NCBI RefSeq assembly: GCF_036002945.1
Contig: NZ_CP108529.1
Location: 6,753,001 to 6,817,000, forward strand
Source: Streptomyces sp. NBC_01224
GTDB taxonomy: Bacteria > Actinomycetota > Actinomycetes > Streptomycetales > Streptomycetaceae
Direction: 5' to 3'
Length of the DNA stretch: 64,000 bases
The position numbers were made by a program, and so were the translations under genes. This document shows, piece after piece, positions 17,550 through 56,186 of this stretch (the stretch's first letter is position 1; every line of letters begins with the position of its first letter). The notes below the pieces were generated by a model. The model saw only the letters and a program-made list of their open reading frames with translations. It searched no databases and had not been told where the DNA came from.

Positions 17550-19002
17550 CCCCAAGGGCTTCCTGACCACCGGGCGTGAGGTCGCCGAGACCCGCCCCGT
17601 CGGCGAGCGCGTCAAGGACTGGAACGAGGTCTACGTTCCGGGCTCGCTGCTCCCGATCATCAGCAAGCAGGCCGGCCGCTGCATGGACTGCGGCATTCCG
17701 TTCTGCCACAACGGCTGCCCGCTCGGAAACCTCATCCCCGAGTGGAACGACTACGCCTACCGCGAGGACTGGACTGCGGCGTCCGAGCGCCTGCACGCCA
17801 CGAACAACTTCCCGGAGTTCACCGGGCGGCTCTGCCCGGCCCCGTGCGAGTCGGCGTGTGTGCTCGGCATCAACCAGCCGGCCGTCACCATCAAGAACGT
17901 CGAAGTCTCCATCATCGACAAGGCGTGGGACAGCGGCGACGTAACCCCGCAGCCGCCCGAGCGGCTCTCCGGCAAGACCGTCGCCGTCATCGGCTCGGGC
18001 CCGGCGGGTCTCGCCGCGGCTCAGCAGCTGACCCGGGCCGGCCACACGGTCGCCGTCTTCGAGCGCGCGGACCGCATCGGAGGTCTTCTCCGGTACGGCA
18101 TCCCCGAGTTCAAGATGGAGAAGTCGCACATCAACCGCCGCATCGAGCAGATGCGCGCGGAAGGCACCAAGTTCCGTACGGAGGTGGAGATCGGCAAGGA
18201 CATCGAAGCCGCCAAGCTCCGCCGCCGGTACGACGCGGTCGTCATCGCCGCCGGTGCCACCGTCTCCCGCGATCTGTCCGTCCCGGGCCGTGAGCTGAAC
18301 GGCGTGCACTTCGCCATGGAGTACCTGCCGCTCGCCAACAAGGTGCAGGAGGGCGACCTGACGGTCTCCCCGATCACCGCCGAGGGCAAGCACGTCGTCG
18401 TCATCGGCGGAGGCGACACCGGCGCCGACTGCGTCGGCACCGCCCACCGCCAGGGCGCGCTCTCCGTCACCCAGCTGGAGATCATGCCGCGGCCGGGCGA
18501 GGACCGGAACGTCAACCAGCCCTGGCCGACCTTCCCGATGCTCTACAAGGTCACCTCCGCGCACGAGGAGGGCGGCGAGAGGGTCTACTCCGTCTCCACC
18601 ACCCACTTCGAGGGCGACGAGGACGGCAACGTCCAGGCCCTGCATCTGGTCGAGGTGGAGTTCAAGGACGGCAAGCTGGAGCAGAAGCCCGGCACCGAGC
18701 GGCGGATCCCGGCGCAGCTGGTCACGCTCGCCATGGGTTTCACCGGCACCGACCAGTCCAACGGCCTCGTCCAGCAGTTCGGTGTGACGCTCGACGAGCG
18801 TGGCAATGTCGCGCGCGACGCGGACTACGCCACCAACGTCGACGGAGTCTTCGTCGCCGGTGACGCGGGCCGCGGCCAGTCCCTCATCGTGTGGGCCATC
18901 GCCGAGGGCCGCTCCGCGGCACGCGGTGTGGACCGCTTCCTGACCGGAGCCAGCGCACTGCCGGCCCCGATCCGCCCGACGGACCGTGCTCTGATGGTCT
19001 GA
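17542..19002 (+). CDS. gltD: Glutamate synthase small subunit
   Basis: GltD, 486 residues, passes NADPH electrons through FAD and 4Fe-4S clusters to GltB. The N-terminal cysteines are at 47, 50, 55 and 59 ([13 protein letters not shown]) with a second group in [10 protein letters not shown] near residue 95. The FAD dinucleotide fold is [15 protein letters not shown] (about 151) and the NADPH fold [13 protein letters not shown] (about 290). C-terminal [18 protein letters not shown] closes the FAD site. Its ATG lies inside the end of gltB, so the subunits are translated together. A hairpin follows. Confidence 0.97.
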
Positions 19003-21656: not shown

Positions 21657-22163
21657 ATGACATCGAGTTCCTGGAAAGAGTTCCAGTCGGCACAGCCGGC
21701 CTTCGCCGACGCCGTTCAGGCCCGTTTCGGGCAGTACAAGCACCACGTCCTGGCGACCCTGCGCAAGGACGGATCGCCGCGCGTGACCGGCCTCGAAGTG
21801 GATTTCCGGCTGGGTGAGCCGTTCCTCGGCATGATGCCGAACTCGCGCAAGGCGCTGGACCTGCACCGCGATCCGCGGTTCGCGGTGCAGGCCAACCCCG
21901 GACCGGACGCCGAGATGGCCGACGGGGACGTCCGGCTCTCCGGCCGCGCGGTGGAGGTGACCGACCCCGTCGTGCTGGCCCGCTTCATCGAGGAGGTGAA
22001 GCCGCCGGAACCCTTCCATCTCTTCCGGGTGGAGCTGACCGAGGTGGTACGCACCGGTCTCGAAGGCGGCGACACCCTGGTCATCCAGGTATGGCGCCCC
22101 GGTCACCCGCTGCGCACCTTCCGAAGGGGCAACGACGACGGCTCACTGGGCGAAATCCTCTGA
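21657..22163 (+). CDS. PPOX-class split-barrel flavoprotein (FMN or F420 binding)
   Basis: A 168-residue pyridoxamine-5'-phosphate-oxidase-like split barrel: HHVLATLRKDGSPRVTGLEVDF, LGMMPNSRKALDLHRDPR and VRLSGRAVEV are the typical strands and helix. In actinobacteria such proteins are often F420-dependent reductases or F420/FMN/heme carriers; the substrate cannot be told. It starts at ATG 21657 after a 144-base gap with no recognised signal. Its last 21 bases overlap the 3' end of the convergent acyl-CoA dehydrogenase gene. Confidence 0.8.
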   Translation: MTSSSWKEFQSAQPAFADAVQARFGQYKHHVLATLRKDGSPRVTGLEVDFRLGEPFLGMMPNSRKALDLHRDPRFAVQANPGPDAEMADGDVRLSGRAVEVTDPVVLARFIEEVKPPEPFHLFRVELTEVVRTGLEGGDTLVIQVWRPGHPLRTFRRGNDDGSLGEIL

Positions 22164-23180
22164 CACGGAGGGCCGGGCGGCAGGCGCGGCCGGCCCGTCG
22201 GCGAGCACCCGCGCGCGGCAAGCCCCCGGCGTCCCCCACGCCTCCCGCAGCGGTCGCGCCTTCCGCAGCCACAGCGACAGATCCAGCTCCTGCGTGTATC
22301 CCACCGCGCCGTGCAACTGCAGTGCCGCCCGCGCCGCCGCGTACCCCGCCTCGCCCGCCGTCACCTTGGCCGCCGCCACCTCGGCACCGGCGTCCGGCGC
22401 CTCCCCGGCGAGCGCGAGCGCCGCCCCGTACAGCAGCGGGCGGGCGAACTCCAGCCCGATCAGCGTGTCCGCGAGCCGGTGCTTGACCGCCTGGAAGGAA
22501 CCGATCGCCGTACCGAACTGGGTGCGCTGCTTCACATACGCGACCGTGGCCCGCAGCAGCGCCTCGCCGGTGCCGAGCGCCTGCGCGGCCGTGGCGAACG
22601 CCGCCCACCGAGCGGCCCGCCCCGAGGCCTGTGCCACCCGGGGCCCGGATGCGAGCAGCTCCCCGCCCGGACCGGGGCGCCACAGCCGCCGGGCCGGGTC
22701 GGACGACACGCTGAGCGCGCCGGGCCCGGGGGCGAGCCGCAGCTCGTCGCCGGTCACAGTGAACACCGCGTCCACGGCATCCGCGTCCAGCGCATACGGC
22801 CCGTACCCGTCCATCCGGAGCGTCGCCGATGCCGCACCGGACGCCAGCCGCGGCAGCCACTCCTTGGCCGCCGCGCCGCCCACACCCCCCAGCAGCACCC
22901 CGGCCGCGACCGTCTCCACAACCGGTCCCGGCACCGCGTGCCGCCCCAACTCGGTGAAGGCGGCTGCGAGTTCGACCGGTAGCGGTCCGACGCCGTCGTA
23001 CGTTTCCGGTATCGCCAGGGCGAACACCCCCGTCTGTGCCAGCCGCGCCCACAGGGCCCTGCCCGGTCCGTGGTTCCCTGCGGCCCAGGCGCGTACCACC
23101 GCAGGGGTGTCCGAGGCGGTCAGCATCGCGTCCAGCGAGCGGGCGAACTCCCGCTGCTCGTCGTCGAGGAGGAAACGCAT
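22143..23180 (-). CDS. Acyl-CoA dehydrogenase-like subunit, short form (FadE, beta type)
   Basis: A 345-residue acyl-CoA dehydrogenase homologue. FLLDDEQREFARSLDAML starts the helical domain; ATVAYVKQRTQFGTAIGSFQAVKHRLAD and ALQLHGAVGYTQELDLSLWLRKA are the C-terminal FAD-facing parts. The middle beta domain is shortened and the usual catalytic glutamate near the C-terminus is not evident. Actinobacterial steroid degraders use alpha2beta2 FadE enzymes built from one such short and one full-length gene, and the full-length partner lies directly upstream with a TGATG overlap. Inferred role: a desaturation step of HIP or side-chain CoA thioesters. Confidence 0.83.
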   Translation of the reverse strand: MRFLLDDEQREFARSLDAMLTASDTPAVVRAWAAGNHGPGRALWARLAQTGVFALAIPETYDGVGPLPVELAAAFTELGRHAVPGPVVETVAAGVLLGGVGGAAAKEWLPRLASGAASATLRMDGYGPYALDADAVDAVFTVTGDELRLAPGPGALSVSSDPARRLWRPGPGGELLASGPRVAQASGRAARWAAFATAAQALGTGEALLRATVAYVKQRTQFGTAIGSFQAVKHRLADTLIGLEFARPLLYGAALALAGEAPDAGAEVAAAKVTAGEAGYAAARAALQLHGAVGYTQELDLSLWLRKARPLREAWGTPGACRARVLADGPAAPAARPSVSEDFAQ

Positions 23181-24325
23181 CAGCGCCGTCCCTTCGGCAG
23201 GCCGAGCAGCCGCTCGGCGATGATGTCGCGCTGGATCTCGTTCGTACCGGCGTAGATGGGGCCCGCGAGGGAGAAGACGTACCCCTCGGCCCACTCGGAC
23301 TCCGCCAGTTCCGCGTCCGGGCCCAGCAGATCGAGCGCCGTCTCGTGCAGAGCGATGTCGTACTCGGACCAGAACACCTTGTTCAGGCTGGACTCCGCGC
23401 CGATGTCGGCCCCCGCCGCGAAGCGTGAGGCGTTGGTGCAGGTGAAGAGCTGATACGCGCGCGCCCCGATCACCGCGTCCGCCACCCGGTCCCGCAGCGC
23501 CGTGTCGGACGGGTCGCCGTGAGTGCGCCACAGCCCGGCCAGCCGGTCCGCGGCGGCCAGGAAGCGGCCGGGGGAGCGGAGCGTCAGTCCGCGCTCGTTG
23601 CCCGTTGTCGACATGGCGATACGCCAGCCCTGTCCGGGCTCCCCGATGATGTCCTCGTCCGGTACGAACACCTCGTCCAGGAACAGCTCGGCGAAGGCGG
23701 GCTTGCCGTCGAGCCGCCCGATCGGCCGGACCGAAACCCCCGGCGCCGACAGGTCGAACATCAGATACGTCAGCCCGTGGTGCGGCTTCGCGGCCTCGGG
23801 ATCCGTGCGGAAGATGCCGAACGCCCGGTCCGCGAACGCGGCCCGCGAGGACCAGGTCTTCTGCCCCGAGAGCAGCCAGCCGCCGTCCGTGCGCACCGCC
23901 CGTGAGCGCAGTGACGCCAGGTCCGAGCCCGACTCCGGCTCGGACCAGGCCTGCGCCCAGATCACCTCCCCGCTCGCCACCGACGGCAGGACCCGGGCCC
24001 GCTGCTCCTTCGTGGCGTGGTCGAAGAGCGTCGGGGCGAGAAGGCTGATGCCGTTCTGCGAGACCCGGCCGGGGCCGCCCGCCGCGTAGTACTCCTCCTC
24101 GAATGTCAGCCACCGGAAGATGTCGACGGCCCGGCCGCCGTACTCGGCTGGCCAGGAGACGACCGACCAGCGGTCCGCGTACAGCCGCGCCTCCCACTCC
24201 CGGTGCGCGGTGAAGCCCTCGGCGGTCTCCAGGGACGGCAGCGGCTCGGCGGGTACGTTGGCCCGCAGCCACTGCCGCGCCTCGGCCCGGAACTCCTCCT
24301 CCTCGGCCGTGTACGACAGATCCAT
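23180..24325 (-). CDS. Acyl-CoA dehydrogenase, full-length (FadE, alpha type)
   Basis: A 381-residue acyl-CoA dehydrogenase with the FAD motifs WAQAWSEPESGSDLASL and GQKTWSSRAAFADRAFGIFRT, and the C-terminal GPIYAGTNEIQRDIIAERLLG. The pairing with the short homologue behind it suggests a heterotetramer like mycobacterial FadE31-32 or FadE33-type enzymes of steroid ring breakdown. Start at the ATG in TGATG, overlapping the hydratase stop by one base; a GTG one codon earlier is equally possible. Transcribed from the KstR2-type operator at 25221. Confidence 0.87.
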   Translation of the reverse strand: MDLSYTAEEEEFRAEARQWLRANVPAEPLPSLETAEGFTAHREWEARLYADRWSVVSWPAEYGGRAVDIFRWLTFEEEYYAAGGPGRVSQNGISLLAPTLFDHATKEQRARVLPSVASGEVIWAQAWSEPESGSDLASLRSRAVRTDGGWLLSGQKTWSSRAAFADRAFGIFRTDPEAAKPHHGLTYLMFDLSAPGVSVRPIGRLDGKPAFAELFLDEVFVPDEDIIGEPGQGWRIAMSTTGNERGLTLRSPGRFLAAADRLAGLWRTHGDPSDTALRDRVADAVIGARAYQLFTCTNASRFAAGADIGAESSLNKVFWSEYDIALHETALDLLGPDAELAESEWAEGYVFSLAGPIYAGTNEIQRDIIAERLLGLPKGRR

Positions 24326-25206
24326 CACGCACCCGCCTTCTTCATCGAGGCGATGTCCATGCCGCCGAGCGGGTCCGCCGCCGTCTCCGCGTTGTGCGCA
24401 TGGGCGAGATGGTGCAGCCCGAAGACCGAGTCCATGCCGGTGTGCAGCCCCTGAAGGTCCTCGGCCTGGTTGACCGCACGCTTGGTGAGGGCCAGCCCCA
24501 GACGCGGCATCCCGGCGATCCGCAATGCCAATTCATGGGTACGCCCGGCGAGTTCGCCGCGCTCCACCACCTTGTTCACCATGCCGACCTCGTGCGCCCG
24601 GCGGGCGCTCATCCGGTCGCCGGTGAACAGGAACTCCTTCGCGATCCGGGGCGGCATCACCCAGGGGTGTGCGAAGTACTCGACGCCCGGGATGCCCATC
24701 CGCACCACCGGATCGGCGAAGAAGGCGTCCTCGCTCGCCACGATCAGATCGCAGATCCAGGCGAGCATCAGCCCGCCGGCCACACACGCGCCCTGGACGG
24801 AGGCGATGACCGGCTTCGGCAGCTCGCGCCAGCGCCTGCACATGCCGAGATAGACCTCCGACTCGCGGGCGAAGCGGCTCTCCGCGCCGGTCTTGTCGGA
24901 GTGGTCCCACCACAGACCTGCCCTGCGCTCGAAGGGCAGATGCGCATCGCGCCCGGGCGTGCCGATGTCATGGCCCGCAGAGAAGTGCTCCCCGGCGCCC
25001 GCCAGCACGACCACCTTGACCTCGGAGTCCTCGGCGGCCCGGTAGAACGCGGCGTCCAGGGCGTAGGTCATCGCCGAGTTCTGGGCGTTGCGGTAACGCG
25101 GGCGGTTCAGCGTCACGTACGCGACCGGGCCCCGGCGCTCGTACAGCACGGGATCGGACTGGAGGTCACCGGTGTCACCGGCAGATGTGTCGTGGGCATC
25201 GAGCAT
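24325..25206 (-). CDS. Enoyl-CoA hydratase/isomerase family protein
   Basis: A 293-residue crotonase-fold enzyme. The oxyanion-hole segments are GEHFSAGHDIG and GACVAGGLMLAW, and the family helix VVRMGIPGVEYFAHPWVMP follows. The insert between the first oxyanion segment and the helix (DAHLPFERRAGLWWDHSDK) is longer than in fatty-acid hydratases. It leads the leftward operon of the steroid block; the expected step is hydration after the FadE desaturation (compare EchA13-like enzymes). ATG 25206 is chosen, with AAGGA seven bases upstream. Confidence 0.87.
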   Translation of the reverse strand: MLDAHDTSAGDTGDLQSDPVLYERRGPVAYVTLNRPRYRNAQNSAMTYALDAAFYRAAEDSEVKVVVLAGAGEHFSAGHDIGTPGRDAHLPFERRAGLWWDHSDKTGAESRFARESEVYLGMCRRWRELPKPVIASVQGACVAGGLMLAWICDLIVASEDAFFADPVVRMGIPGVEYFAHPWVMPPRIAKEFLFTGDRMSARRAHEVGMVNKVVERGELAGRTHELALRIAGMPRLGLALTKRAVNQAEDLQGLHTGMDSVFGLHHLAHAHNAETAADPLGGMDIASMKKAGA

Positions 25207-25220
25207 CGGCTCATCCTTCC

Positions 25221-25238
25221 CTAACAAGTGTTTGGTAG
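25221..25238. promoter_or_regulatory. KstR2-type operator, site 1
   Basis: CTAACAAGTGTTTGGTAG. Its core AACAAGTGTTTGGT fits the reported KstR2 motif AnCAAGnnCTTGnT with one mismatch. It lies between the divergent hydratase and SDR genes and would cover both promoters. A near-identical site is at 33822-33841. Confidence 0.75.
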
Positions 25239-25299
25239 GTTAACGTACGAGCGCGAGGACCGTCGAGGATCCGCGGGCCGAGACCGAGGAGGCGCGGGC

Positions 25300-26082
25300 G
25301 TGAGCGCACCGCAGTACGTACCCGGACACGGCCTGCTGGCCGGCCGCAGCGCCGTCGTCACCGCAGCCGCGGGCGCCGGAATCGGCGGCGCCACCGCCCG
25401 TAAATTCCTTGAGGAGGGCGCCCGCATCGTCATCGGCGACGCGCACGCCCGTCGGCTGCAGGAGACCGAGCAGGCGCTCGCCGAGGAGTTCGGCGCGGAC
25501 CATGTCGCGTCACTGCCCTGCGACGTCACCGACGAGACCCAGGTCCAGGCGCTCTTCGCGCTCGCCGAACAGACCCACGGCGGCCTCGACATCGTCGTCA
25601 ACAACGCCGGCCTCGGCGGCACCGCCGAACTCACCGAGATGACCGACGAACAGTGGACCAAGGTCCTCGACGTCACCCTGAACGGCACCTTCCGCTGTAC
25701 CCGGGCCGCCCTGCGCTCGCTCAAGGCGGCGGGCCGCGGCGGCATCGTCGTCAACAACGCCTCTGTCGTCGGCTGGCGGGCCCAGAGCGGCCAGGCCCAC
25801 TACGCCGCCGCCAAGGCGGGCGTCATGGCGCTCACCCGGTGCGCCGCGATCGAGGCCGCCGAGTACGGCGTACGCGTCAACGCCGTCGCCCCCAGCCTCG
25901 CCATGCACCCGCATCTGGTGAAGGTCACCTCCGCCGAACTCCTCGACGAACTGACCGAGAAGGAGGCGTTCGGCCGCTACGCCGAGCCGTGGGAGATCGC
26001 CAACGTCATCGTCTTCCTCGCCAGCGGCTACTCCTCCTACATGACGGGCGAGGTCGTCTCCGTCAGTAACCGGCATGCCTGA
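25300..26082 (+). CDS. ipdF: SDR-family dehydrogenase, IpdF-like (Rv3559c type)
   Basis: A 260-residue short-chain dehydrogenase. The NAD site is VVTAAAGAGIGGATARKF, then DVTDETQ, VVNNAGLGG, and the catalytic Ser-Tyr-Lys in NNASVVGWRAQSGQAHYAAAKAG. I recognise strong resemblance to mycobacterial Rv3559c (IpdF), including WRAQ...HYAAAKAGVMALTRC and the C-terminal YSSYMTGEVVSVS; IpdF works on the HIP-derived ring intermediate. The GTG at 25300 has GAGGAGG seven bases upstream. It heads an operon with kstR2 (30-base gap) and fadA6 (31-base gap). Confidence 0.83.
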   Translation: MSAPQYVPGHGLLAGRSAVVTAAAGAGIGGATARKFLEEGARIVIGDAHARRLQETEQALAEEFGADHVASLPCDVTDETQVQALFALAEQTHGGLDIVVNNAGLGGTAELTEMTDEQWTKVLDVTLNGTFRCTRAALRSLKAAGRGGIVVNNASVVGWRAQSGQAHYAAAKAGVMALTRCAAIEAAEYGVRVNAVAPSLAMHPHLVKVTSAELLDELTEKEAFGRYAEPWEIANVIVFLASGYSSYMTGEVVSVSNRHA

Positions 26083-26112
26083 CGGGAGGACGGCCGGGCG
26101 GAGAATGGGCGG

Positions 26113-26724
26113 GTGCCTACCAAGAAGAAGCCCCAGGTGACCCCCTCGCCCGAGCGTCGCCGCGAACTGCTCGCCACCGCCGCCGAGGTGTTCGCCGCGC
26201 AGGGATACAACGCCACCACCGTCCGCAGAATCGCGGACGCGGCCGGGATGCTCGCGGGCAGCCTCTACTACCACTTCGATTCCAAGGAATCGATGATCGA
26301 CGAGATCCTCTCGACCTTCCTCACCGAACTCTGGGACGGGTACGACGCGGTGCTCGCCGCCGGGCTCGGACCCCGGGAGACCATCGAGGCCCTCGTCACC
26401 GAGTCCTTCCGGGAGATCGACCGGCACCGCGCCGCCGTCGCCATCTACCAGAAGGAGTCCAGGCACCTGGCCACCCAGCCGCGCTTCCAGTACCTCGTCG
26501 ACTCCCAGCAGAAGTTCGAGAAGGCCTGGCTCGGCACGCTGGAACGCGGCGTCGCCGACAAGACCTTCCGCGCCGACCTCGACATCCGCCTCACCTACCG
26601 CTTCGTCCGCGACACCGTCTGGGTCGCGGCGTCCTGGTACCGGCCGGGCGGACAGCACAGCCCCGAGGAGATCGCCCGCCAGTACCTCTCGATGGTTCTG
26701 GACGGCATCGCCCTCGACACCTGA
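26113..26724 (+). CDS. kstR2: TetR-family repressor, KstR2-like
   Basis: A 203-residue TetR regulator. The helix-turn-helix is RRELLATAAEVFAAQGYNATTVRRIADAAGMLAGSLYYHF split over residues 14-53, and the C-terminal half keeps the KstR2 pattern YQKESRHLATQPRFQYL, DLDIRLTYRFVRDTVWV and WYRPGGQ. KstR2 represses the HIP (steroid rings C/D) genes and is released by HIP-CoA in mycobacteria. The matching operators at 25221 and 33822 flank the two catabolic blocks, and its own operon starts at the first one, so autoregulation is likely. GTG start. Confidence 0.85.
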   Translation: MPTKKKPQVTPSPERRRELLATAAEVFAAQGYNATTVRRIADAAGMLAGSLYYHFDSKESMIDEILSTFLTELWDGYDAVLAAGLGPRETIEALVTESFREIDRHRAAVAIYQKESRHLATQPRFQYLVDSQQKFEKAWLGTLERGVADKTFRADLDIRLTYRFVRDTVWVAASWYRPGGQHSPEEIARQYLSMVLDGIALDT

Positions 26725-26755
26725 CCCCACCCGAGCTCACCGAGGAGCAGAAGTC

Positions 26756-27913
26756 ATGGCCGAGGCATACATCGTCGAAGCGGTACGCACTCCGGTCGGC
26801 CGGCGCAGGGGAGGACTCGGCTCGGTCCACCCCGCCGACCTCGGCGCCCATGTCATCAAGGCCCTCGTCGAGCGGACCGGAATCGACCCGGCGGCCGTCG
26901 AGGACGTGGTCTTCGGCTGCCTCGACACCGTCGGACCGCAGGCCGGTGACATCGCCCGCACCTGCTGGCTGGCGGCCGGACTGCCCGAGGAGGTCCCCGG
27001 CGTCACCGTCGACCGGCAGTGCGGCTCCTCCCAGCAGGCCGTGCACTTCGCCGCCCAGGGCGTCCTGTCCGGCACCCAGGACCTCGTCGTCGCGGGCGGC
27101 ACGCAGAACATGACGCAGATCCCGATCGCCTTCGCCTCCCGTCAGGCCGCCGAGCCCCTCGGCCTGACGGACGGCCCGTACGCGGGCAGCGAGGGCTGGC
27201 GCGCCCGGTACGGCGACGCACCGGTCAACCAGTTCCACGGTGCCCAGCTGATCGCCGAGAAGTGGGACATCAGCCGCCAGGACATGGAGGAGTTCGCCCT
27301 CCGCTCCCACCGGCGTGCGATCCGCGCCATCGACGAGGGCCGCTTCGCGCGCGAGACCGTCGCCTACGGCGACATCACCACCGACGAGGGGCCGCGCCGC
27401 GACACCACCCTGGAGAAGATGGCGGCCCTCAAGCCGGTCCTGGACGGCGGCACGATCACCGCCGCCTGTTCCTCGCAGGTCTCCGACGGGGCCGCCGCCA
27501 TGCTCATCGCGTCCGAGCGCGCCGTGGCCGAGCACGGTCTCACCCCGCGCGCCCGCATCCACCACCTGTCGGTGCGCGGCGAGGATCCGATCCGCATGCT
27601 TTCGGCGCCGATCCCGGCCACCGCGCACGCGCTCAAGAAGAGCGGAATGACCATCGACGACATCGACCTGGTCGAGATCAACGAGGCATTCGCCCCGGTC
27701 GTCCTGGCCTGGCTGAAAGAAACCGGAGCCGACCCGGACAAGGTCAACGTCAACGGCGGCGCGATCGCCCTGGGTCACCCGCTCGGCGCAACCGGTACAA
27801 AATTGATGACGACGCTGCTGCACGAGCTGGAGCGCACCGGCGGCCGCTACGGGCTGCAGACCATGTGCGAGGGCGGCGGCCAGGCGAACGTGACCATCAT
27901 CGAGCGGCTCTGA
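26756..27913 (+). CDS. fadA6: Acetyl-CoA acyltransferase (thiolase), FadA6-like
   Basis: A 385-residue degradative thiolase. The nucleophilic cysteine is in VDRQCGSSQQAV (about residue 89), the histidine in GGAIALGHPLGATG, and the second cysteine in TMCEGGGQANVTIIERL; NEAFAP is also present. Length and the VDRQCGSSQQ and FGCLDTVGPQAGDIARTCWLAAG segments match mycobacterial FadA6, which performs the last thiolysis in C/D-ring breakdown. ATG with GAGGAGCAG upstream. It is the last gene of the ipdF-kstR2-fadA6 operon. Confidence 0.87.
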   Translation: MAEAYIVEAVRTPVGRRRGGLGSVHPADLGAHVIKALVERTGIDPAAVEDVVFGCLDTVGPQAGDIARTCWLAAGLPEEVPGVTVDRQCGSSQQAVHFAAQGVLSGTQDLVVAGGTQNMTQIPIAFASRQAAEPLGLTDGPYAGSEGWRARYGDAPVNQFHGAQLIAEKWDISRQDMEEFALRSHRRAIRAIDEGRFARETVAYGDITTDEGPRRDTTLEKMAALKPVLDGGTITAACSSQVSDGAAAMLIASERAVAEHGLTPRARIHHLSVRGEDPIRMLSAPIPATAHALKKSGMTIDDIDLVEINEAFAPVVLAWLKETGADPDKVNVNGGAIALGHPLGATGTKLMTTLLHELERTGGRYGLQTMCEGGGQANVTIIERL

Positions 27914-28232
27914 CCAGGTCACCGAACCCTTCCGGCAGGGCTCCGGGAACAAGTTTCGGCAGAGTTCCGAGCTCGCTCCGGGCCAGTTACCCCAAGGGCC
28001 CGGGCAAAAAATCCGCCGGCCGGCGGCGCGGCGTGTTCCACCGCCGGTCGGCAGAACGTGCTACGGTTGCCGAGTTGCAGTTTTGGTACCCATGAACTTT
28101 ATGTGCGCCTGACGGGAATGCTTCCTCAGGCGCATTATTGTTTTCCGGCTTTCTCCGGATGGGGCTCAATGCGGCGACTTGGAATTCGTAAAGTGCGGAT
28201 TTCCGGCACTGCACCTCTTTTAGGAGAATGAC
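27914..28232 (+). other. Intergenic region and cold-shock gene leader
   Basis: No gene in these 319 bases. The right half is AT-richer than its surroundings and is a likely promoter and long 5' leader of the cold-shock gene, with a stem followed by a T-rich stretch at 28104-28145 and a strong TTAGGAG ribosome site. Confidence 0.55.
28104..28145 (+). promoter_or_regulatory. Terminator-like hairpin in the cold-shock gene leader
   Basis: A 9-bp stem (TGCGCCTGA/TCAGGCGCA, 28104-28134) with a 13-base loop is followed by TTATTGTTTTCC. It lies about 90 bases before the start codon. It may be a leader attenuator or a temperature-responsive fold of the kind known for csp mRNAs. Confidence 0.5.
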
Positions 28233-28436
28233 ATGGCTACTGGAACCGTGAAGTGGTTCAACTCGGAAAAGGGCTTCGGCTTCATCGAGCAGGACGGCGG
28301 CGGCGCCGACGTCTTCGCCCACTACTCCAACATCGCCACCTCGGGCTTCCGTGAGCTCCAGGAGGGCCAGAAGGTCTCCTTCGACGTCACGCAGGGCCAG
28401 AAGGGCCCGCAGGCGGAGAACATCGTCCCGGCCTAA
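28233..28436 (+). CDS. Cold-shock protein (CspA family)
   Basis: A 67-residue single cold-shock domain: [17 protein letters not shown] contains RNP1 (KGFGFI) and VFAHYS is RNP2. The five-strand OB fold binds single-stranded RNA and DNA and acts as an RNA chaperone. Length and sequence are typical of Streptomyces SC7.0-like Csp. ATG with TTAGGAG seven bases upstream. A terminator follows and a DEAD-box helicase gene lies downstream in the same direction, a functional pair in cold adaptation. Confidence 0.96.
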
Positions 28437-28460
28437 TTGCCGGACGCGTACCTCGCAGCC

Positions 28461-28489
28461 GGGGCCCGCACCGTGAAGGTGCGGGTCCC
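28461..28489 (+). terminator. Terminator after the cold-shock gene
   Basis: A 12-bp stem with one G-U pair and a GTGAA loop, 25 bases after the stop codon. Confidence 0.8.
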
Positions 28490-28566
28490 GGCTTGTGCTG
28501 TCCCCGGGACGTGGCGAAGAAGCGCGCCGTCCCGCAGCGCTCCCCCAGTAGTCCCACGCAGTTCCC

Positions 28567-28596
28567 AGGAATCCCTAGGAATCCTCAGGAATCCCC
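28567..28596 (+). repeat. Three tandem 10-bp repeats before the helicase gene
   Basis: AGGAATCCCT, AGGAATCCTC, AGGAATCCCC directly in series, followed by the true ribosome site CAGGAGGG. Each unit holds an AGGA that could act as a standby ribosome site. Confidence 0.7.
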
Positions 28597-28613
28597 CAGG
28601 AGGGCAATTCCGT

Positions 28614-30290
28614 ATGACCCGCTCCGAACGCCAGGACCGCCCCGCCCGCAACCGCCCGTCGAGGGGGCGCGGCACGGCCCCGGCAAAGGCAACCGCTAAG
28701 GGTTCCGGCAAGGGATCCGGCAAGGCGTCGCCCCGTCGCAGGGCCACGCCGCCGCAGGGCGAATTCGCCCTGCCCGAAACCATGACCCCCGCACTGCCCG
28801 CCGTCGAGGCGTTCGCCGAGCTGGACATGCCCGCAGCCCTGCTGAAAACCCTTGCCGCGCAGGGCGTCACCGATCCGTTCCCGATCCAGGGCGCCACCCT
28901 GCCGAACTCGCTCGCCGGCCGGGACATCCTCGGCCGCGGCCGCACCGGCTCCGGCAAGACCCTCGCCTTCGGCCTCGCGTTGCTGGCCCGCACCGGCGGG
29001 CGGCGCGCCGAGCCGCGCGCCCCGCTCGCCCTGGTGCTCGTCCCGACCCGTGAGCTCGCCCAGCAGGTCACCGACGCGCTGACGCCGTACGCGACGTCCG
29101 TGAACCTGCGCCTGGCCACCGTCGTCGGCGGCATGTCGATCAGCAAACAGTCCGGCACGCTGCGCCGCGGCGCCGAGGTGCTCGTCGCCACGCCCGGACG
29201 GCTGAAGGACCTCATCGAGCGCGGCGACTGCCGCCTCGACCAGGTCGCCATCACCGTCCTCGACGAGGCCGACCAGATGGCGGACATGGGCTTCATGCCG
29301 CAGGTCGTCGCGCTGCTCAAGCAGGTCGAGCCGGACGGTCAGCGGATGCTCTTCTCCGCGACCCTGGACAAGAACATCGACCGGCTGGTCAAGATGTTCC
29401 TGACCGACCCGGTCGTGCACTCGGTCGACCCGTCCGCGGGCGCGGTCACCACCATGGAGCACCATGTGCTGCACGTGGCCGACGAGACCGACAAGAAGGC
29501 CGTCGCCACCAGGATCGCTGCCCGCGACGGCCGGGTGATCATGTTCGTGGACACCAAGCGTGCCGCCGACCGCTTCGCCAAGCGGCTGCTCGCCAGCGGT
29601 GTACGGGCTGCCGCCCTGCACGGCGGGCGTTCGCAGCCGCAGCGCAACCGGACGCTGGACCAGTTCAAGAACGGCCAGGTCACCGCGCTCGTCGCGACGA
29701 ATGTGGCGGCGCGCGGCATTCATGTCGACGACCTCGACCTGGTCGTGAACGTGGACCCGCCGACCGATCACAAGGACTACCTCCACCGCGGCGGGCGCAC
29801 GGCGCGTGCCGGGGAGTCCGGCAGCGTCGTCACCCTGGTGCTGCCCGAGGAGAAGCGGGAGATGACCCGGCTGATGGCCGACGCGGGCATCGCTCCGCGG
29901 ACCACCCGGATCAAGTCCAGCGACGAGGAACTCACCCGGATCACCGGGGCCCGTGAGCCGTCCGGCGTCGCGATCGTCATCGAGGTCCCCCAGCCGACCC
30001 CGCCGAAGCCGCGCACGCGGTCGGGCGGGGCCGCGGCCGGTGGCGCGGGCTTCCGCTCGGGCAGCCGCGGCCGGGGCCGGCGCGGTGGTGCCGGGCAGGG
30101 CGGCGGTGGTGAAGGCCGGGGTACGGGGGCTTCCTCCGCCCGCGGCGGCGGTGCGGGCGGCTCGGCTCGTGGCGCCGGTGCCGGTGCCGGTGGTGGCCGT
30201 GGCGAGGCACGCGGTGCCGGGGCCGGGCGTTCCGGGTCCGGGGCCGGACGCGGTGGTGCGGCGGCGGGGCGTGGCCGCAGGGCCGCGTAG
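28614..30290 (+). CDS. DEAD-box ATP-dependent RNA helicase
   Basis: A 558-residue helicase. A basic N-terminus (about 55 residues, Lys/Arg/Gly) precedes the core with GRTGSGKT (motif I), PTRELAQQV (Ia), TPGR (Ib), LDEADQMAD (II), FSATLD (III), TNVAARGIHVDD (V) and HRGGRTARAG (VI). The last 120 residues are Gly/Arg/Ala/Ser low complexity with RGG-like elements that bind RNA. Likely unwinds RNA at low temperature or in ribosome assembly. ATG 28614 has AGGAGG 10 bases upstream; earlier in-frame starts would lie in the terminator of the csp gene. Confidence 0.94.
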   Translation: MTRSERQDRPARNRPSRGRGTAPAKATAKGSGKGSGKASPRRRATPPQGEFALPETMTPALPAVEAFAELDMPAALLKTLAAQGVTDPFPIQGATLPNSLAGRDILGRGRTGSGKTLAFGLALLARTGGRRAEPRAPLALVLVPTRELAQQVTDALTPYATSVNLRLATVVGGMSISKQSGTLRRGAEVLVATPGRLKDLIERGDCRLDQVAITVLDEADQMADMGFMPQVVALLKQVEPDGQRMLFSATLDKNIDRLVKMFLTDPVVHSVDPSAGAVTTMEHHVLHVADETDKKAVATRIAARDGRVIMFVDTKRAADRFAKRLLASGVRAAALHGGRSQPQRNRTLDQFKNGQVTALVATNVAARGIHVDDLDLVVNVDPPTDHKDYLHRGGRTARAGESGSVVTLVLPEEKREMTRLMADAGIAPRTTRIKSSDEELTRITGAREPSGVAIVIEVPQPTPPKPRTRSGGAAAGGAGFRSGSRGRGRRGGAGQGGGGEGRGTGASSARGGGAGGSARGAGAGAGGGRGEARGAGAGRSGSGAGRGGAAAGRGRRAA

Positions 30291-30305
30291 CGGTACGGAT
30301 GACGT

Positions 30306-30333
30306 GCGGTGACCGGATTTGTCCGGTCACCGC
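30306..30333. terminator. Bidirectional terminator between helicase gene and ipdC
   Basis: Perfect 12-bp stem GCGGTGACCGGA with TTTG loop between convergent genes. Confidence 0.85.
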
Positions 30334-30340
30334 TTCGTCC

Positions 30341-31405
30341 TCAGTCGCCGGACGGGCCCACGGCGCCCGACACCGCGCCCAGCGCCGCGCAGGCCTCCTC
30401 CATCACCCGCTCCACCAGCTCCGCACAGCTGGGCAGATCCTCGATCAGGCCCGCCACCTGGCCCGATGCCATCACACCCAGATCCGTGCGGCCGTCGACC
30501 ATGGACGCCTTCAGGAGCATCGGGGTGTTGGCGGCCAGCAGGACCTGGCTCCAGGACAGGTCCTTGCCGTGCTTCATCGCGAGACCGTCGCGCACCATCC
30601 GGGACCAGCTGGTCCCGGAGATCCGCTTGAACCCCGCCGCCCGGCGCACCGCCTGGGCCAACGCCCGGATCCGGCCCGCGTTCTCCAGCGCGGCGACCAT
30701 CTCCGTACGCAGCATCCGGTGCGGGAGCCCGTCCACCGCCGTGGTGACCGTTACGTCCTTGACGCCCGCCGCCAGATAGCGGGCCTTCACCGCGTCCGGC
30801 ACGGTCGAGTCCGACGTCAGCAGGAACCGCGTGCCCATCGCGATGCCCGCCGCCCCGTACGCCAGCGCAGCGACCAGGCCCCGGCCGTCGTGGAAGCCAC
30901 CCGCCGCGATCACCGGGATGTCCACCGCATCGACAACCTGGGGCAGCAGCACGGTGGTTGCCACATCACCGGTGTGGCCGCCGCCCTCGCCGCCCTGCAC
31001 GATCACCGCGTCCGCGCCCCACGCCGCGACCTTCTCGGCATGGCGCCGGGCACCTATCGACGGGATCACGACCACGCCCGCGTCCTTCAGCTCGGCGATG
31101 AGCTCCTTCGAAGGGGCGAGCGCGAAGGACGCCACCTTCACGCCTTCGTCGACGATGATCCGTACCCGCTCGCGCGCATCACCGGCGTCGGCGCGCAGAT
31201 TGACGCCGAACGGCTCGTCCGTACGGGACTTGACCTCCCGTACCGCTGCCCGCAGCTGCTCCGCGGTCATCGTCGCGGAGGCCAGGATGCCGAGCGCGCC
31301 CGCGCGGGCCGTGGCGGAGACCAGGCGGGGGCCCGCGACCCAGCCCATGCCGGTCTGGACTATGGGGTGGCGGACGCCGGCAAGATCCGTGAGCGCGGTC
31401 CGCAT
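30341..31405 (-). CDS. ipdC: Flavin-dependent oxidoreductase, IpdC-like (nitronate monooxygenase fold)
   Basis: A 354-residue TIM-barrel FMN enzyme of the nitronate monooxygenase family: PIVQTGMGWVAGPRLVSATARAG, FGVNLRAD, GADAVIVQGGEGGGHTG and PVIAAGGFHDGRGLVAALAYGAAGI. Sequence and place (last gene of an echA20-ipdA-ipdB-ipdC run) match mycobacterial Rv3553/IpdC, which acts on the HIP-CoA-derived bicycle before ring D is opened. True nitronate oxidation is unlikely. The ATG overlaps the ipdB stop (TGATG). Confidence 0.86.
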   Translation of the reverse strand: MRTALTDLAGVRHPIVQTGMGWVAGPRLVSATARAGALGILASATMTAEQLRAAVREVKSRTDEPFGVNLRADAGDARERVRIIVDEGVKVASFALAPSKELIAELKDAGVVVIPSIGARRHAEKVAAWGADAVIVQGGEGGGHTGDVATTVLLPQVVDAVDIPVIAAGGFHDGRGLVAALAYGAAGIAMGTRFLLTSDSTVPDAVKARYLAAGVKDVTVTTAVDGLPHRMLRTEMVAALENAGRIRALAQAVRRAAGFKRISGTSWSRMVRDGLAMKHGKDLSWSQVLLAANTPMLLKASMVDGRTDLGVMASGQVAGLIEDLPSCAELVERVMEEACAALGAVSGAVGPSGD

Positions 31406-32145
31406 CAGACCCCGACCTCGCGGTTCCGGGTGCCCTTCGGGTCGATGACCTCGCGGATCAGGCCCAGCTCCTCGGCGGTCGGCTCCCGGGTGCAGGGGAT
31501 GTCGTCCGCGATCGTGAGCGCGAAGCCGGTGGCCTCGCGGACCTCGTCGGCGGTGACGCCGGGGTGCAGCGAGGCGAGGCGCATCGAGCGGTCCGGGGTC
31601 GCGAAGTCGAGGACGCCGAGATCGGTGACGACGCGCGGGATGCGGTGGTAGCGGGTCGCCGACGGACCGGCTGCCGCGGCACTGTCGTGACCGACCCCGC
31701 AGATCATGTCGACGCGCTCGACGAAGACCCGGGGGGAGTGCTTGGGCACCCAGTAACTGACCGGGTGGTTCAGGGTGTTGACCGGGGCGCCGCGTACGCC
31801 GAGGAGCTGGCGGGTGGGCTGTTCCCAGTCGCCGATGCAGGAGATGTTCTGGTTGCCGAACCGGTCGATCTGGCTCGCTCCCATCATCACGTGACGCCTG
31901 CCGCCCGTGACCATGGTGAGGTGTTGGCGGTACGGCAGCCAGCCCTCCGTCGTGCCGTCCGGGCCGACGATCAGCGCCTCGCCGTCGGTGAGCAGCAGAT
32001 CGGGCGAGAAGGTGCGTCTGGCGAGCCGGGCGCCGACGGACGGGACGAGTCCCATAGGGCTGGCGAGCACCTCCCCGTTGTCGCGCCAGGCATCGGCGCA
32101 GGCGATCACGCAGTACTCGGCCCGGGTCACGGTCCGGTTGCTCAC
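31405..32145 (-). CDS. ipdB: Steroid ring hydrolase subunit IpdB (CoA-transferase fold, beta)
   Basis: A 246-residue member of the family I CoA-transferase fold: RAEYCVIACADAWRDNGEVLASPMG, LLLTDGEALIVG, VMMGASQIDRFGNQNIS and PRVVTDLGVLDF. The transferase glutamate is not used in IpdAB, which is a hydrolase that opens the last (C) ring of COCHEA-CoA. The pattern and the pairing with IpdA match Rv3552. GTG start in a GTGA overlap with ipdA. Confidence 0.87.
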   Translation of the reverse strand: MSNRTVTRAEYCVIACADAWRDNGEVLASPMGLVPSVGARLARRTFSPDLLLTDGEALIVGPDGTTEGWLPYRQHLTMVTGGRRHVMMGASQIDRFGNQNISCIGDWEQPTRQLLGVRGAPVNTLNHPVSYWVPKHSPRVFVERVDMICGVGHDSAAAAGPSATRYHRIPRVVTDLGVLDFATPDRSMRLASLHPGVTADEVREATGFALTIADDIPCTREPTAEELGLIREVIDPKGTRNREVGV

Positions 32146-33056
32146 TTCTGCTCCTCGTGCCAGGCCTGGACGGCCGACTGATAGCTCTTCTCGTCGCCCT
32201 GTGCGGGCAGGAAGCGGTCGCTGAAGGCCGCCCAGGCGTCGGGGTCGGCGGCCGCGGTCGCGTACGCCTTCTGGAACGCCTCGTCGCGCGGGCGGTCGGG
32301 GGCGCAGGAGGTGAAGTGCGCGCCGTTCGGGGTCTCGACGACGCCGGTGACGGAGTGCCGCTTGACGAGGAGGGTCTGCGGGGCCGCCTTCTCGGTCAAC
32401 TCGGCAGTTTCCACCAGGCGTTCGCAGGAGACGTACGCTTTGTCGGCGGCCTCGCAGAACAGGTCGTCGAAGTACGGGTCCGGGCCGAGGTACTGGCCGT
32501 TGCCGAACCGGTCGGCTCGGTTCATGTGGACCAGCGCCGCGTCCATCCGCAGGGCGGGCATCGCGACGAACTCCTCGCCGTCCGCGTACGGCGATGTGAC
32601 CGTACGCAGGCCCGGGTTGACCCGCATCACGTCCGAACCGATACCGGCGCGGACGGGGAGGAACGGCAGCCGGTTCGCGGCGGCGTGCAGCCCCCACATG
32701 AACATGGCCTCGTCGACCTCCATCAGCTCGAACGCGCCGCGCTGGCGGGCCGCCCTGAAGTGGGGTTCGAGCGGGATCGAGTCGAGTGTGGCGAAGGCGG
32801 CGACCAGTTTGCGGATCTTGCCGGCGGCGGCGAGCAGGCCGACGTCGGGGCCGCCGTACGAGACCACGGTGAGGTCGGTGATCGGGGAGCGGAGCAGCGC
32901 CCGGACCAGTGCCATCGGCTTTCGGCGGGAGCCCCAGCCGCCGATGCCGATCGTCATCCCGCTGCTGAGCCGGGAGACGACGTCCTGCGCTGTCATGGTC
33001 TTGTCGGTTCTGTCGGTTCTGTCGGTTCTGTCGGTACCGATTCCGGTCATGGTCAT
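32142..33056 (-). CDS. ipdA: Steroid ring hydrolase subunit IpdA (CoA-transferase fold, alpha)
   Basis: A 304-residue alpha subunit: SGMTIGIGGWGSRRKPMALVRALLRS, DLTVVSYGGPDVGLLAAAGK, LPFLPVRAGIGSDV and NRADRFGNGQY. GGWGSRRKPMA is the element I associate with Rv3551/IpdA. With IpdB it hydrolyses COCHEA-CoA, the last carbon ring left from steroids. The extreme N-terminus has a small in-frame repeat (TDRTDRTDRTDK, from a 9-base tandem repeat) between two possible ATGs; ATG 33056 has GGAGG nine bases upstream and is preferred. Confidence 0.87.
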   Translation of the reverse strand: MTMTGIGTDRTDRTDRTDKTMTAQDVVSRLSSGMTIGIGGWGSRRKPMALVRALLRSPITDLTVVSYGGPDVGLLAAAGKIRKLVAAFATLDSIPLEPHFRAARQRGAFELMEVDEAMFMWGLHAAANRLPFLPVRAGIGSDVMRVNPGLRTVTSPYADGEEFVAMPALRMDAALVHMNRADRFGNGQYLGPDPYFDDLFCEAADKAYVSCERLVETAELTEKAAPQTLLVKRHSVTGVVETPNGAHFTSCAPDRPRDEAFQKAYATAAADPDAWAAFSDRFLPAQGDEKSYQSAVQAWHEEQK

Positions 33057-33059
33057 GCG

Positions 33060-33803
33060 TCATACCTCCTTGCCGAAGGTGTCGCGGACGCGGTCGGCGA
33101 CACCGCTGAGATTGGCCTCGAAGGTGAAGCCCTGCTCGAAGCGGTAGCTGCGGCGTACGTCCACCGGGTCGATGCCGTTGATCGCGGCCTTCGCCAGCCG
33201 GATCAGATACCCGTCCTTACGGGCGATCTCGCCCGCCAACTCCATTGCTGCATCCAGGAGTTCATCGCGCGGCACAACCTTCCAGACCGAGCCGTGGGCG
33301 TGCAGTTCTGCGGCGGTGGCGGTGCGCGAGGTGTAGTACAACGCGCGCATCAGATGCTGCGGCACGAGCCGGGCGAGATGGGTTGCGGCCCCGAGCGCGC
33401 CCCGGTCCAGCTCGGGCAGGCCGAATGTCGCATCGTCGCTCGCCACGATCGCGTCCGCGTTGCCGACGAGGCCGATGCCGCCACCGAGGCAGAAGTCGTT
33501 CACCGCGGCGACGACCGGGACCTCGCACTCGTACACGGCCGAAAACGCCTCGTAGCAGCCGCGGTTGGCGCCGATCAGGGCGGCGTGACCGGTGTCGCGC
33601 TGCATCTCCTTGATGTCGACGCCCGCGTTGAATCCACGCCCGGCGGCGGCCAGCACGACACAGCGGACCTCGGGATCGCGGCCCGCGGCCCGGAGGGCGT
33701 CGGCGAGGTCGTACCAGCCCTGTACGGGGAGCGCGTTGACGGGCGGGTAGTCGACCGTGACGAGGGAGATGCCCTTGCCGGGACTTGCGGTGGAGACACC
33801 CAT
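33060..33803 (-). CDS. echA20: EchA20-like ring-opening crotonase
   Basis: A 247-residue crotonase close to Rv3550/EchA20: ISLVTVDYPPVNALPVQGWYDLADAL, GRGFNAGVDIKEMQRDTG, FCLGGGIGLVGNADAIVASDDATFGLPE and GALGAATHLARLVPQHLMR. EchA20 cleaves ring D of the HIP-derived CoA ester by a retro-Claisen-type hydrolysis. ATG 33803 gives the length of the mycobacterial protein; an ATG at 33833 is in frame but lies inside the operator. It leads the operon with ipdA (three-base gap), ipdB and ipdC. Confidence 0.88.
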   Translation of the reverse strand: MGVSTASPGKGISLVTVDYPPVNALPVQGWYDLADALRAAGRDPEVRCVVLAAAGRGFNAGVDIKEMQRDTGHAALIGANRGCYEAFSAVYECEVPVVAAVNDFCLGGGIGLVGNADAIVASDDATFGLPELDRGALGAATHLARLVPQHLMRALYYTSRTATAAELHAHGSVWKVVPRDELLDAAMELAGEIARKDGYLIRLAKAAINGIDPVDVRRSYRFEQGFTFEANLSGVADRVRDTFGKEV

Positions 33804-33821
33804 GGGCGAATCAGCTACCTT

Positions 33822-33841
33822 TCCACCAAACATTTGTTAGG
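33822..33841. promoter_or_regulatory. KstR2-type operator, site 2
   Basis: On the minus strand CCTAACAAATGTTTGGTGG. Core AACAAATGTTTGGT has two mismatches to AnCAAGnnCTTGnT and differs from site 1 only at the central G/A within the core. It lies between divergent echA20 and the second SDR gene. Confidence 0.72.
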
Positions 33842-33889
33842 TGTGGAAGGTAGCAGCCTGCCCCCGCATCGCCAACAAGGAGATGTGTG

Positions 33890-34879
33890 ATGACCGCAAG
33901 CAGCGACGGACGGGACAGGGGAAGCGAAGGGGGGAACGACGGAGGAAGCGTCGGTGGACTGTGCGACGGACGCGTCGTGATCGTGACGGGTGCCGGGCGC
34001 GGGCTCGGCCGTGCCCACGCGCTCGCCTTCGCCGCCGAGGGGGCGAAGGTCGTGGTCAACGATCTCGGTGTCGGCCCGGACGGCGACGGGGGCTCGGCCG
34101 GTCCGGCCCGGCAGGTGGTCGACGAGATCGTGGCGGCAGGCGGCGAAGCGGTCGCCCACGGGGGCGACATCGCCACGACGGAGGGGGCGGCGTCGCTGAT
34201 CACTGCCGCGCTGGAGACCTTCGGGCGACTGGACACGCTGGTCAACAACGCCGGATTTCTGCGCGACCGGATGCTGGTGAATCTGGACGAGGACGACTGG
34301 GACGCGGTGATGCGGGTCCATCTGAAAGGCCACTTCCTGCCACTGAAGCATGCCGCCGCGCACTGGCGGGCCGAGGCGAAGGCCGGCCGCGCCCCGGTGG
34401 CCCGGGTGGTCAACACAAGCTCCGGTGCGGGGCTGCTCGGGAGCGTCGGACAGGGCAATTACTCCGCTGCGAAGGCGGGCATCGTGGGCCTGACGCTCGT
34501 CGCGGCCGCGGAGATGGGACGGTACGGGGTCCAGGTCAACGCGATCGCCCCGGCGGCACGGACCCGGATGACCGAGCAGACGTTCGCGGAGACGATGGCG
34601 GCGCCGGGGGAGGGGGAGTTCGACGCGATGGCCCCCGAGAACGTGTCCCCGCTGGTGGTGTGGCTCGGCTCGGCCGCGAGTGACGGGGTGACCGGGCGGG
34701 TCTTCGAGGCGGAGGCCGGCCGGATCACGGTTATGGAGGGCTGGCGCCCCGGTCCCACCGCGGACCGGCGGGCGCGGTGGGCGCCGGCGGAGGCGGGGGA
34801 AGCGGCACGGAAGCTGCTGTCGGAGGCAGAGCCGGCGCAGCCGGTGTACGGGGCGAAATCCAGCCGTCGGCGAGGCTGA
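33890..34879 (+). CDS. SDR-family dehydrogenase (Rv3548c type)
   Basis: A 329-residue short-chain dehydrogenase of the MFE-2/hydroxyacyl-CoA type: VVIVTGAGRGLGRAHALAFAAEGAKVVVNDLG, DTLVNNAGFLRDRML, catalytic NTSSGAGLLGSVGQGNYSAAKAG, and an APAARTRMTEQTF C-terminal segment. The match to Rv3548c of the mycobacterial KstR2 regulon is close. Role inferred: oxidation of a beta-hydroxyacyl-CoA in C/D-ring breakdown. ATG 33890 has AAGGAG seven bases upstream. The single gene faces away from echA20 across operator site 2. Confidence 0.85.
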   Translation: MTASSDGRDRGSEGGNDGGSVGGLCDGRVVIVTGAGRGLGRAHALAFAAEGAKVVVNDLGVGPDGDGGSAGPARQVVDEIVAAGGEAVAHGGDIATTEGAASLITAALETFGRLDTLVNNAGFLRDRMLVNLDEDDWDAVMRVHLKGHFLPLKHAAAHWRAEAKAGRAPVARVVNTSSGAGLLGSVGQGNYSAAKAGIVGLTLVAAAEMGRYGVQVNAIAPAARTRMTEQTFAETMAAPGEGEFDAMAPENVSPLVVWLGSAASDGVTGRVFEAEAGRITVMEGWRPGPTADRRARWAPAEAGEAARKLLSEAEPAQPVYGAKSSRRRG

Positions 34880-36012: not shown

Positions 36013-36903
<891 letters not shown>

Positions 36904-38749: not shown

Positions 38750-38904
38750 CGTGCTCGTACTCTCCTGTGCGTGCGGTCCCCCGGGGCCGCGCCGCCCAGG
38801 GGTCGCACGACGGCACGCACCACGGAGCGGGCGAACCCGGGAGGAATGTTGCAACCAACCTTCGCCCCCTGGCGTGCGGCCGGTCCATGGACAAAGATCA
38901 CTGC

Positions 38905-38942
38905 TGTTTGGACACAATTGTTCGGACGCGAAATGTTCGGAC
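38905..38942 (+). promoter_or_regulatory. Three spaced TGTTYGGAC repeats, candidate AraC-type operators
   Basis: TGTTTGGAC at 38905, TGTTCGGAC at 38919 and at 38934, same orientation, 14 and 15 bases apart. They lie between the divergent GH35 and AraC genes and end 33 bases before the regulator start. Direct repeats of this kind fit AraC-family binding. Confidence 0.65.
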
Positions 38943-38975
38943 CAATGCAAAGAAAAGGGGGAGGAAGGAAGGCCG

Positions 38976-56075: not shown

Positions 56076-56186
56076 GGAGTGGAGTCTTGTGCGACCTTCG
56101 CTGGCGTGCGCCGGAATCGAAGGCGCGTTCACCGACAAGGATGAAGATCGCAAACAGGCGTCTTAACCTTGGAATCGAAGGGGGAG

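Follow-up and report, generated by a model that had tools for sequence, protein, structure and literature searches.

A KstR2-type steroid C/D-ring gene cluster in Streptomyces sp. NBC_01224 and its candidate companion locus

Overview

The genome of Streptomyces sp. NBC_01224 (10.0 Mb) harbors a KstR2-type module for HIP, i.e., for the C/D-ring part of steroids, which is located at positions 22143-34879 of the 64,000-nucleotide stretch analyzed here (genome positions 6,753,001-6,817,000, referred to as the window) and is composed of eleven pathway genes and a DEAD-box helicase gene. The comparisons reported below suggest that this C/D-ring module is probably functional and that a second regulon supplies it with HIP or with a hydrindane acid resembling it. 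The putative entry enzymes are encoded at 3.93-3.99 Mb of the same genome, beside a different palindrome; therefore, the two loci probably represent a single, split pathway. The module is kept or lost together with this second locus. The parts are known, and the genus-wide split arrangement appears to be new; no title or abstract listed in the open-licence literature describes the module in Streptomyces, subscription papers being mostly outside the search.

The occurrence of a KstR2-type cluster in this span had been proposed in an original prediction based on the sequence, and it is borne out by the analysis: the open reading frames (ORFs) are real, and the matches obtained in the PDB, in NCBIfam and in Nocardia farcinica agree. 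All the genes that were then named are present; however, the pathway genes are eleven rather than ten, and the span also includes the helicase gene.

Gene content of the cluster

The ORFs of the module are long and rich in G+C at the third codon position, and they begin and end where the original prediction had placed them. Ten of the proteins (all but IpdB) were scanned against NCBIfam models with curated cut-offs, and five of them passed (percentages in brackets refer to the identity with the N. farcinica counterpart): the enoyl-coenzyme A (CoA) hydratase (24325-25227, minus strand; PRK08290, 439.3 bits vs. a cut-off of 280; 74% to the gene lying between fadD3 and fadE31); the IpdF-like short-chain dehydrogenase/reductase (SDR; 25228-26082, plus strand; PRK07831, 446.2 vs. 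336 bits; 64%); the FadA6-like thiolase (26756-27913, plus strand; PRK07801, 711.1 vs. 591 bits; 67%); the EchA20-like ring D hydrolase (33060-33833, minus strand; PRK07938, 413.9 vs. 260 bits; 69%); and the Rv3548c-like SDR (33887-34879, plus strand; PRK07791, 499.3 vs. 373 bits; 65-68%). We take these five models to contain the Mycobacterium tuberculosis proteins whose names are used here. No specific model exceeded its cut-off, in the same scan, for the two FadE proteins, KstR2, IpdA and the IpdC-like flavoprotein (30341-31405, minus strand; 68%), the last matching a FabK-like model below the cut-off.

KstR2, IpdA and IpdB were placed by means of PDB sequence matches together with the N. 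farcinica comparison. The KstR2-like TetR repressor (26113-26724, plus strand; 54%) has entry 2ibd as its best match (E 2e-66), followed by two structures of KstR2, 4w97 and 4w1u (about 7e-56). The best matches of the ring C hydrolase subunits, IpdA (alpha; 32142-33056, minus strand; 57%) and IpdB (beta; 31405-32145, minus strand; 55%), are 6co6, 6co9, 6coj and 6con, with E-values of 3.2e-98 (6co6_A) and 2.6e-88 (6co6_B), respectively. In the match to the PDB sequence, IpdB has a glycine at the position of Gly57 of the Rhodococcus jostii RHA1 protein, where, according to the available text of PMC5380842, the catalytic glutamate of CoA transferases is located; IpdA, in turn, retains the glutamate that is replaced by alanine in entry 6coj. 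As judged from these positions, the predicted IpdAB is one with hydrolase-type residues. The IpdF-, KstR2-, FadA6-, IpdC-, IpdB-, IpdA-, EchA20- and Rv3548c-like identities of the original prediction are all in agreement with these matches.

The original prediction had also recognized a hydratase and a pair of a short and a long FadE, and this pair can now be assigned more precisely. The FadE30-33 proteins of N. farcinica were named on the basis of the gene order of the M. tuberculosis regulon, as given in Table 1 of PMC5380842; the order in N. farcinica is FadA6, KstR2, IpdF, FadE30, FadD3, hydratase, FadE31, FadE32 and FadE33. The short protein of the window (22143-23180, minus strand) is 51% identical to FadE32 vs. 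31% to FadE33, and the long one (23180-24328, minus strand) is 65% identical to FadE31 vs. 37% to FadE30. FadE32 is annotated as a MOODA-CoA dehydrogenase in the consulted part of PMC5380842, and, according to the portion of PMC8708139 available, FadE30 and FadE33 correspond to IpdE1 and IpdE2, acting on 5-OH-HIP-CoA. By sequence relationship, the pair is FadE31/FadE32, the short protein being a predicted MOODA-CoA dehydrogenase subunit of the late stage, and not FadE30/FadE33; an assignment to IpdE1/IpdE2 was rejected on the same comparison, and also because IpdE2, the best NCBIfam model of the short protein, scored just 131.8 bits vs. a cut-off of 450. Therefore, the cluster would encode the ring-opening and the late steps, without FadD3 and IpdE1/IpdE2. 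Neither the ORFs of the cluster nor their comparison with N. farcinica disclosed FadD3, FadE30 or FadE33, the HIP activation and side-chain genes are missing from the cluster, and, in line with the original prediction, the window contains neither FadD3 nor any ring A/B gene.

Comparison with known systems

The cluster shares with the KstR2 regulon of M. tuberculosis, Mycobacterium smegmatis and R. jostii RHA1 (Rv3548c-Rv3565) the genes for KstR2, IpdF, FadA6, IpdC, IpdB, IpdA, EchA20, the Rv3548c-type SDR, FadE31 and FadE32, as well as KstR2-type palindromes in divergent promoters; it differs in that no fadD3, fadE30, fadE33 or Rv3549c-type gene was found in it, and in having two operators instead of three, with a core that has drifted to CAAAC.NTTG. 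The HIP region of N. farcinica (NZ_LN868939.1) contains counterparts of all eleven window genes, including the hydratase next to fadE31; however, fadD3, FadE30 and FadE33 lie with its HIP genes, and HsaA-, HsaC-, HsaD-, KshA- and KstD-position genes occur within the stretches read. In Saccharopolyspora hirsuta, a cholesterol degrader, fadD3 is likewise located outside the steroid clusters, whereas these clusters hold ring A/B genes and fadE30/fadE33, as far as the accessible text of PMC8708139 reports.

A fuller version of the module was found in Streptomyces sp. NBC_00841, where all eleven window genes are present at 66-89% identity, together with FadE30, a FadE33-like gene, an Rv3549c-position SDR, HsaE/F/G-type genes (recognized by eye) and, at the edge of the region, a FadD3-like stretch. 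This region is located at 725934-756749 of a linear plasmid (a record of 1.5 Mb), and the fuller version can therefore be extrachromosomal.

Predicted operators

KstR2 has a published motif, AnCAAGnnCTTGnT, which occurs at three sites in mycobacteria according to the consulted text of PMC3068626. Two KstR2-like operators were predicted in the window, one in each of the two divergent promoters of the cluster: AACAAGTGTTTGGT at 25223-25236, with one mismatch to the motif, and ACCAAACATTTGTT at 33825-33838, with two. The position of each is conserved in other Streptomyces: both boxes were found in 16 of the 20 Streptomyces loci fetched, a single one in two loci and none in the other two, and KstR2-like sites are also present in the matching promoters of N. 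farcinica and NBC_00841. The longest-ORF starts of IpdF, the hydratase and EchA20 overlap the operators, and the starts were therefore re-placed inside these ORFs; the true ones are probably near 25300, 25206 and 33803, respectively. From this arrangement we infer that the module is repressed by KstR2.

Distribution of the module

The host of the cluster had been described as a Streptomyces-like genome, in accordance with the fact that 79 of the 80 loci kept, among at least 575 confirmed, are named Streptomyces, the remaining one being an Actinacidiphila. In 15 of the 20 other Streptomyces loci fetched, ten module genes (the hydratase being the exception) are again found side by side in one locus, so that their grouping is not due to chance. 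Sixty-two full-length named loci were read only 10 kb on each side of ipdA, and gene counts among them are thus lower bounds: IpdA, IpdB, IpdC, EchA20 and the SDR are present in all 62, FadA6 in at least 60, KstR2 in at least 59, IpdF in at least 58, FadE31 in at least 53 and FadE32 in at least 50, with FadE30 in at least six and KshA and HsaF in at least four each. Two or more KstR2-like boxes occur in 48 of the same 62 loci. The PRK08290 hydratase was detected in at least 14 of them, besides the window and N. farcinica, and is therefore not a core but a patchy member of the module.

Among 150 genomes sampled from the genus, IpdA was found in 103 (E ≤ 1e-40), some of the matches being interrupted by a stop in the aligned part (not so in NBC_01224); across the phylum, at E ≤ 1e-60, it was found in 27 of 296 genomes and 16 of 198 genera. 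HsaC occurs in 26 of the 150 genomes, 23 of which are IpdA carriers, and in six it lies within 20 kb of ipdA; in each of these six, the cluster has a FadE30 next to it as well. They look like true steroid degraders, and NBC_01224 is not one of them.

The second locus and its palindrome

The genome-wide search for fadD3 that the original prediction had recommended disclosed a FadD3-family ligase at 3935043-3936545, within a locus (3930859-3991285) that is 2.8 Mb away from the window cluster. It is the best FadD3 match in the genome, with 54% identity to N. farcinica FadD3 and a score of 830.7 bits vs. the cut-off of 657 of the NCBIfam family NF005801. Beside it are a crotonase, a protein with ChsH2 zinc-ribbon and OB domains, and a thiolase-like protein that matches PDB entry 6ok1 (E 1.7e-95) and passes the lipid-transfer model PRK07855 (579 vs. 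469 bits); the locus thus contains Ltp2/ChsH2-type genes, i.e., homologues of steroid side-chain genes. It also contains a FadE30-like gene (56-61% identical to FadE30) and a FadE33-like one, each nearer to its namesake than to any other FadE type in the comparison, one more long/short FadE pair, and a flavin reductase 47% identical to the HsaB-position protein of N. farcinica.

The palindrome CTGAC-N4-CGTCAG has 34 distinct exact sites in the genome vs. three for the reversed control, and seven of them fall in 60 kb of the second locus, beside acyl-CoA and oxygenase genes; since the palindrome was first found in this locus, its clustering there is partly circular. At the promoter of the FadD3-like gene it recurs in the seven other genomes fetched, with a matching half-site pair in six of them and a changed spacer in the seventh (L058). 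Outside 3.93-3.99 Mb, 22 of the 27 exact sites were inspected, in 20 stretches: seven (in six stretches) adjoin catabolic-looking genes, encoding a FadE, a luciferase-like monooxygenase with an SDR, an SDR, a MaoC-type hydratase, a ferredoxin reductase and a DUF35 protein with a thiolase, and the rest are inside ORFs or beside unrelated genes. Also adjoining sites of this kind are a hydratase 51% identical to the neighbor of the KstD-position gene of N. farcinica and a FadE that shares 51% identity with a FadE of a further N. farcinica stretch (L033). Taken as a set, the sites look like a candidate regulon. A conserved TetR gene (PF19352) at 3944265, with a one-mismatch CTGAC site at its beginning, was considered as its regulator; however, the site is partly made up of the start codon, and the product gives only weak TetR matches in the PDB.

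Co-occurrence of the two loci

In the 150 genomes, IpdA and the FadD3-like ligase are both present in 98, IpdA alone in five, the ligase alone in three and neither in 44 (Fisher p 1e-28, ignoring kinship); two of the three ligase-only genomes are less than 80% complete. Either a cluster-borne FadE30 or the core FadE30-like gene, scored by identity bands, is present in 100 of the 103 IpdA carriers vs. three of the 47 non-carriers. By the same scoring, the core copy occurs in 83 of the 86 carriers whose cluster lacks FadE30 vs. seven of the 17 with a cluster FadE30 (Fisher p 2e-7, uncorrected for kinship), which suggests that the two genes can replace each other.

The genes were also mapped onto a tree of 63 genomes built on a single marker (mqnA), which includes 23 of the 103 IpdA carriers, the five without ligase having been put in on purpose; non-carriers left out were G102, G112, G119 and G142, four of the 44 with the marker, and G001, G050 and G130, without it. 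Here a gene was labelled FadE30-like for any match better than about 1e-79, a limit that also catches a paralogue of 45% identity, probably the one labelled in G032 and G081, both outside the tree. IpdA needs 12 changes on this tree. Its well-supported branches yield six independent pairs that differ in IpdA, and the FadE30-like gene follows IpdA in a mean of 5.7 of them (median p 0.03), going the opposite way never or almost never.

Proposed pathway and alternative explanations

From the gene identities, the operators and the co-distribution reported above, we infer reactions, a substrate and a mode of regulation as follows. A KstR2-repressed module would break down the hydrindane portion, i.e., rings C and D, of a steroid or of a steroid-like molecule. 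Its carbon source would probably be HIP or a hydrindane acid close to it, which is either imported or generated by the second regulon from some larger molecule, and the entry CoA ester would be made by the FadD3-family ligase of the second locus with the FadE30-like and FadE33-like dehydrogenases. By analogy with the mycobacterial pathway, IpdF and IpdC would convert 5-OH-HIC-CoA into HIEC-CoA, EchA20 would hydrolyse ring D and IpdAB ring C, and FadA6 would release acetyl-CoA and so form MOODA-CoA, whose β-oxidation would be started by FadE31/FadE32 together with the hydratase. In the described KstR2 system, the effector is HIP-CoA.

Some observations weigh against such a scheme. Two one-mismatch operator matches were reached in five of 100 shuffles of the window, a single one-mismatch site being weak alone, and the loose KstR2 palindrome is not enriched across the genome (26 sites vs. 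31 for the control); the operator call thus rests on conservation, since motif matches alone are weak. No ANCAANNNNTTGNT site is present at 3.9065-4.0240 Mb, around FadD3, which indicates that no single regulator controls both loci; two-mismatch matches near FadD3 were discounted as a sign of KstR2 control, lying inside genes. Moreover, the FadE33-like gene is just about 40% identical to FadE33, and the core FadE30-like gene coexists with a cluster FadE30 in seven of 17 genomes and is therefore not simply FadE30. On the tree, the result for FadD3 is not significant (median p 0.125): it tracks IpdA in 4.0 of six pairs on average, while 1.9 are undecided.

It might also be that the module works on a non-steroid hydrindane or bicyclic keto acid, e.g., one derived from a terpenoid, HIP not being its natural substrate. 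This would fit the finding of HsaC in just 23 of the 103 IpdA carriers (E ≤ 1e-40) and the diverged relatives that stand in for FadE30 and FadE33; nevertheless, the 54-69% identity of KstR2, IpdAB, IpdC, EchA20 and FadA6 to their N. farcinica counterparts and the side-chain gene homologues of the second locus make it rather unlikely. Less likely still is a full steroid degrader with ring A/B genes located elsewhere and too diverged for the searches used. HsaB, Rv3538-position hydratase and Ltp2 homologues do adjoin the CTGAC palindrome, the genome has one mce operon (six PF11887 matches at 1.127-1.133 Mb, of the Mce4 or another type), and a single Rieske protein exceeds the Pfam KshA_C cut-off (75.5 vs. 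23.3 bits). However, the neighbors of the Rieske gene, judged by eye from the ORF starts, are not steroid genes, and for this reason the protein was not accepted as KshA, though not excluded either. The genome-wide hsaC search suggested by the original prediction gave no match here at E ≤ 1e-40, in a genus where 26 of 150 members do match; KstD was found in none of the 150 genomes at E ≤ 1e-80, nor in NBC_01224 at E ≤ 1e-15, where each of the 63 candidates received a score. The KstD negative is a weak one, since the query also missed three of the six Streptomyces with HsaC near ipdA. Finally, the lack of a detectable HsaC of the upper pathway might suggest that the cluster no longer works and is what is left of a steroid pathway of an ancestor; this appears very improbable, given the intact ORFs, the uninterrupted IpdA, the operators and gene content conserved across many species, and a distant locus gained or lost together with the cluster.

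The presence of the module has a wider bearing. According to the part of PMC4810484 consulted, a survey of 2016 recorded no steroid pathway in 55 of the 57 Streptomyces genomes it covered, in contrast with the C/D-ring module and operators found here in two thirds of the species sampled. Streptomyces would then either widely scavenge partly degraded soil steroids or reach the same intermediates in another way; since most of those sampled carry the module, and the usual genes for the first two rings were not detected next to it, this common soil genus may feed on a steroid-like compound. We tentatively consider an undescribed pathway, present in most Streptomyces, in which the CTGAC regulon opens a steroid-like polycyclic isoprenoid without HsaC and supplies the KstR2 module with a hydrindane acyl-CoA; for this purpose the regulon could perhaps, and no more firmly, use its own Ltp2/ChsH2-type genes, flavin-dependent oxygenases, amidohydrolases and FadD3-type ligase. 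The Streptomyces module is a homologue of the M. tuberculosis pathway containing IpdAB, which the available text of PMC5380842 describes as important for the survival of that bacterium.

Helicase gene and flanking regions

The DEAD-box helicase gene (28437-30290, plus strand; PF00270 and PF00271) is judged to be outside the pathway; it is located inside the cluster in 35 of the 62 full-length named loci and absent from the remainder. Just past the cluster, the window contains genes for a trypsin-family protease (36061-36903) and a family 35 beta-galactosidase (36935-39205). The large and small subunits of glutamate synthase are encoded at 12981-19002, an M1 aminopeptidase at 45400-47904, and a tRNA-Leu (CAA) gene is located at 56186-56259.

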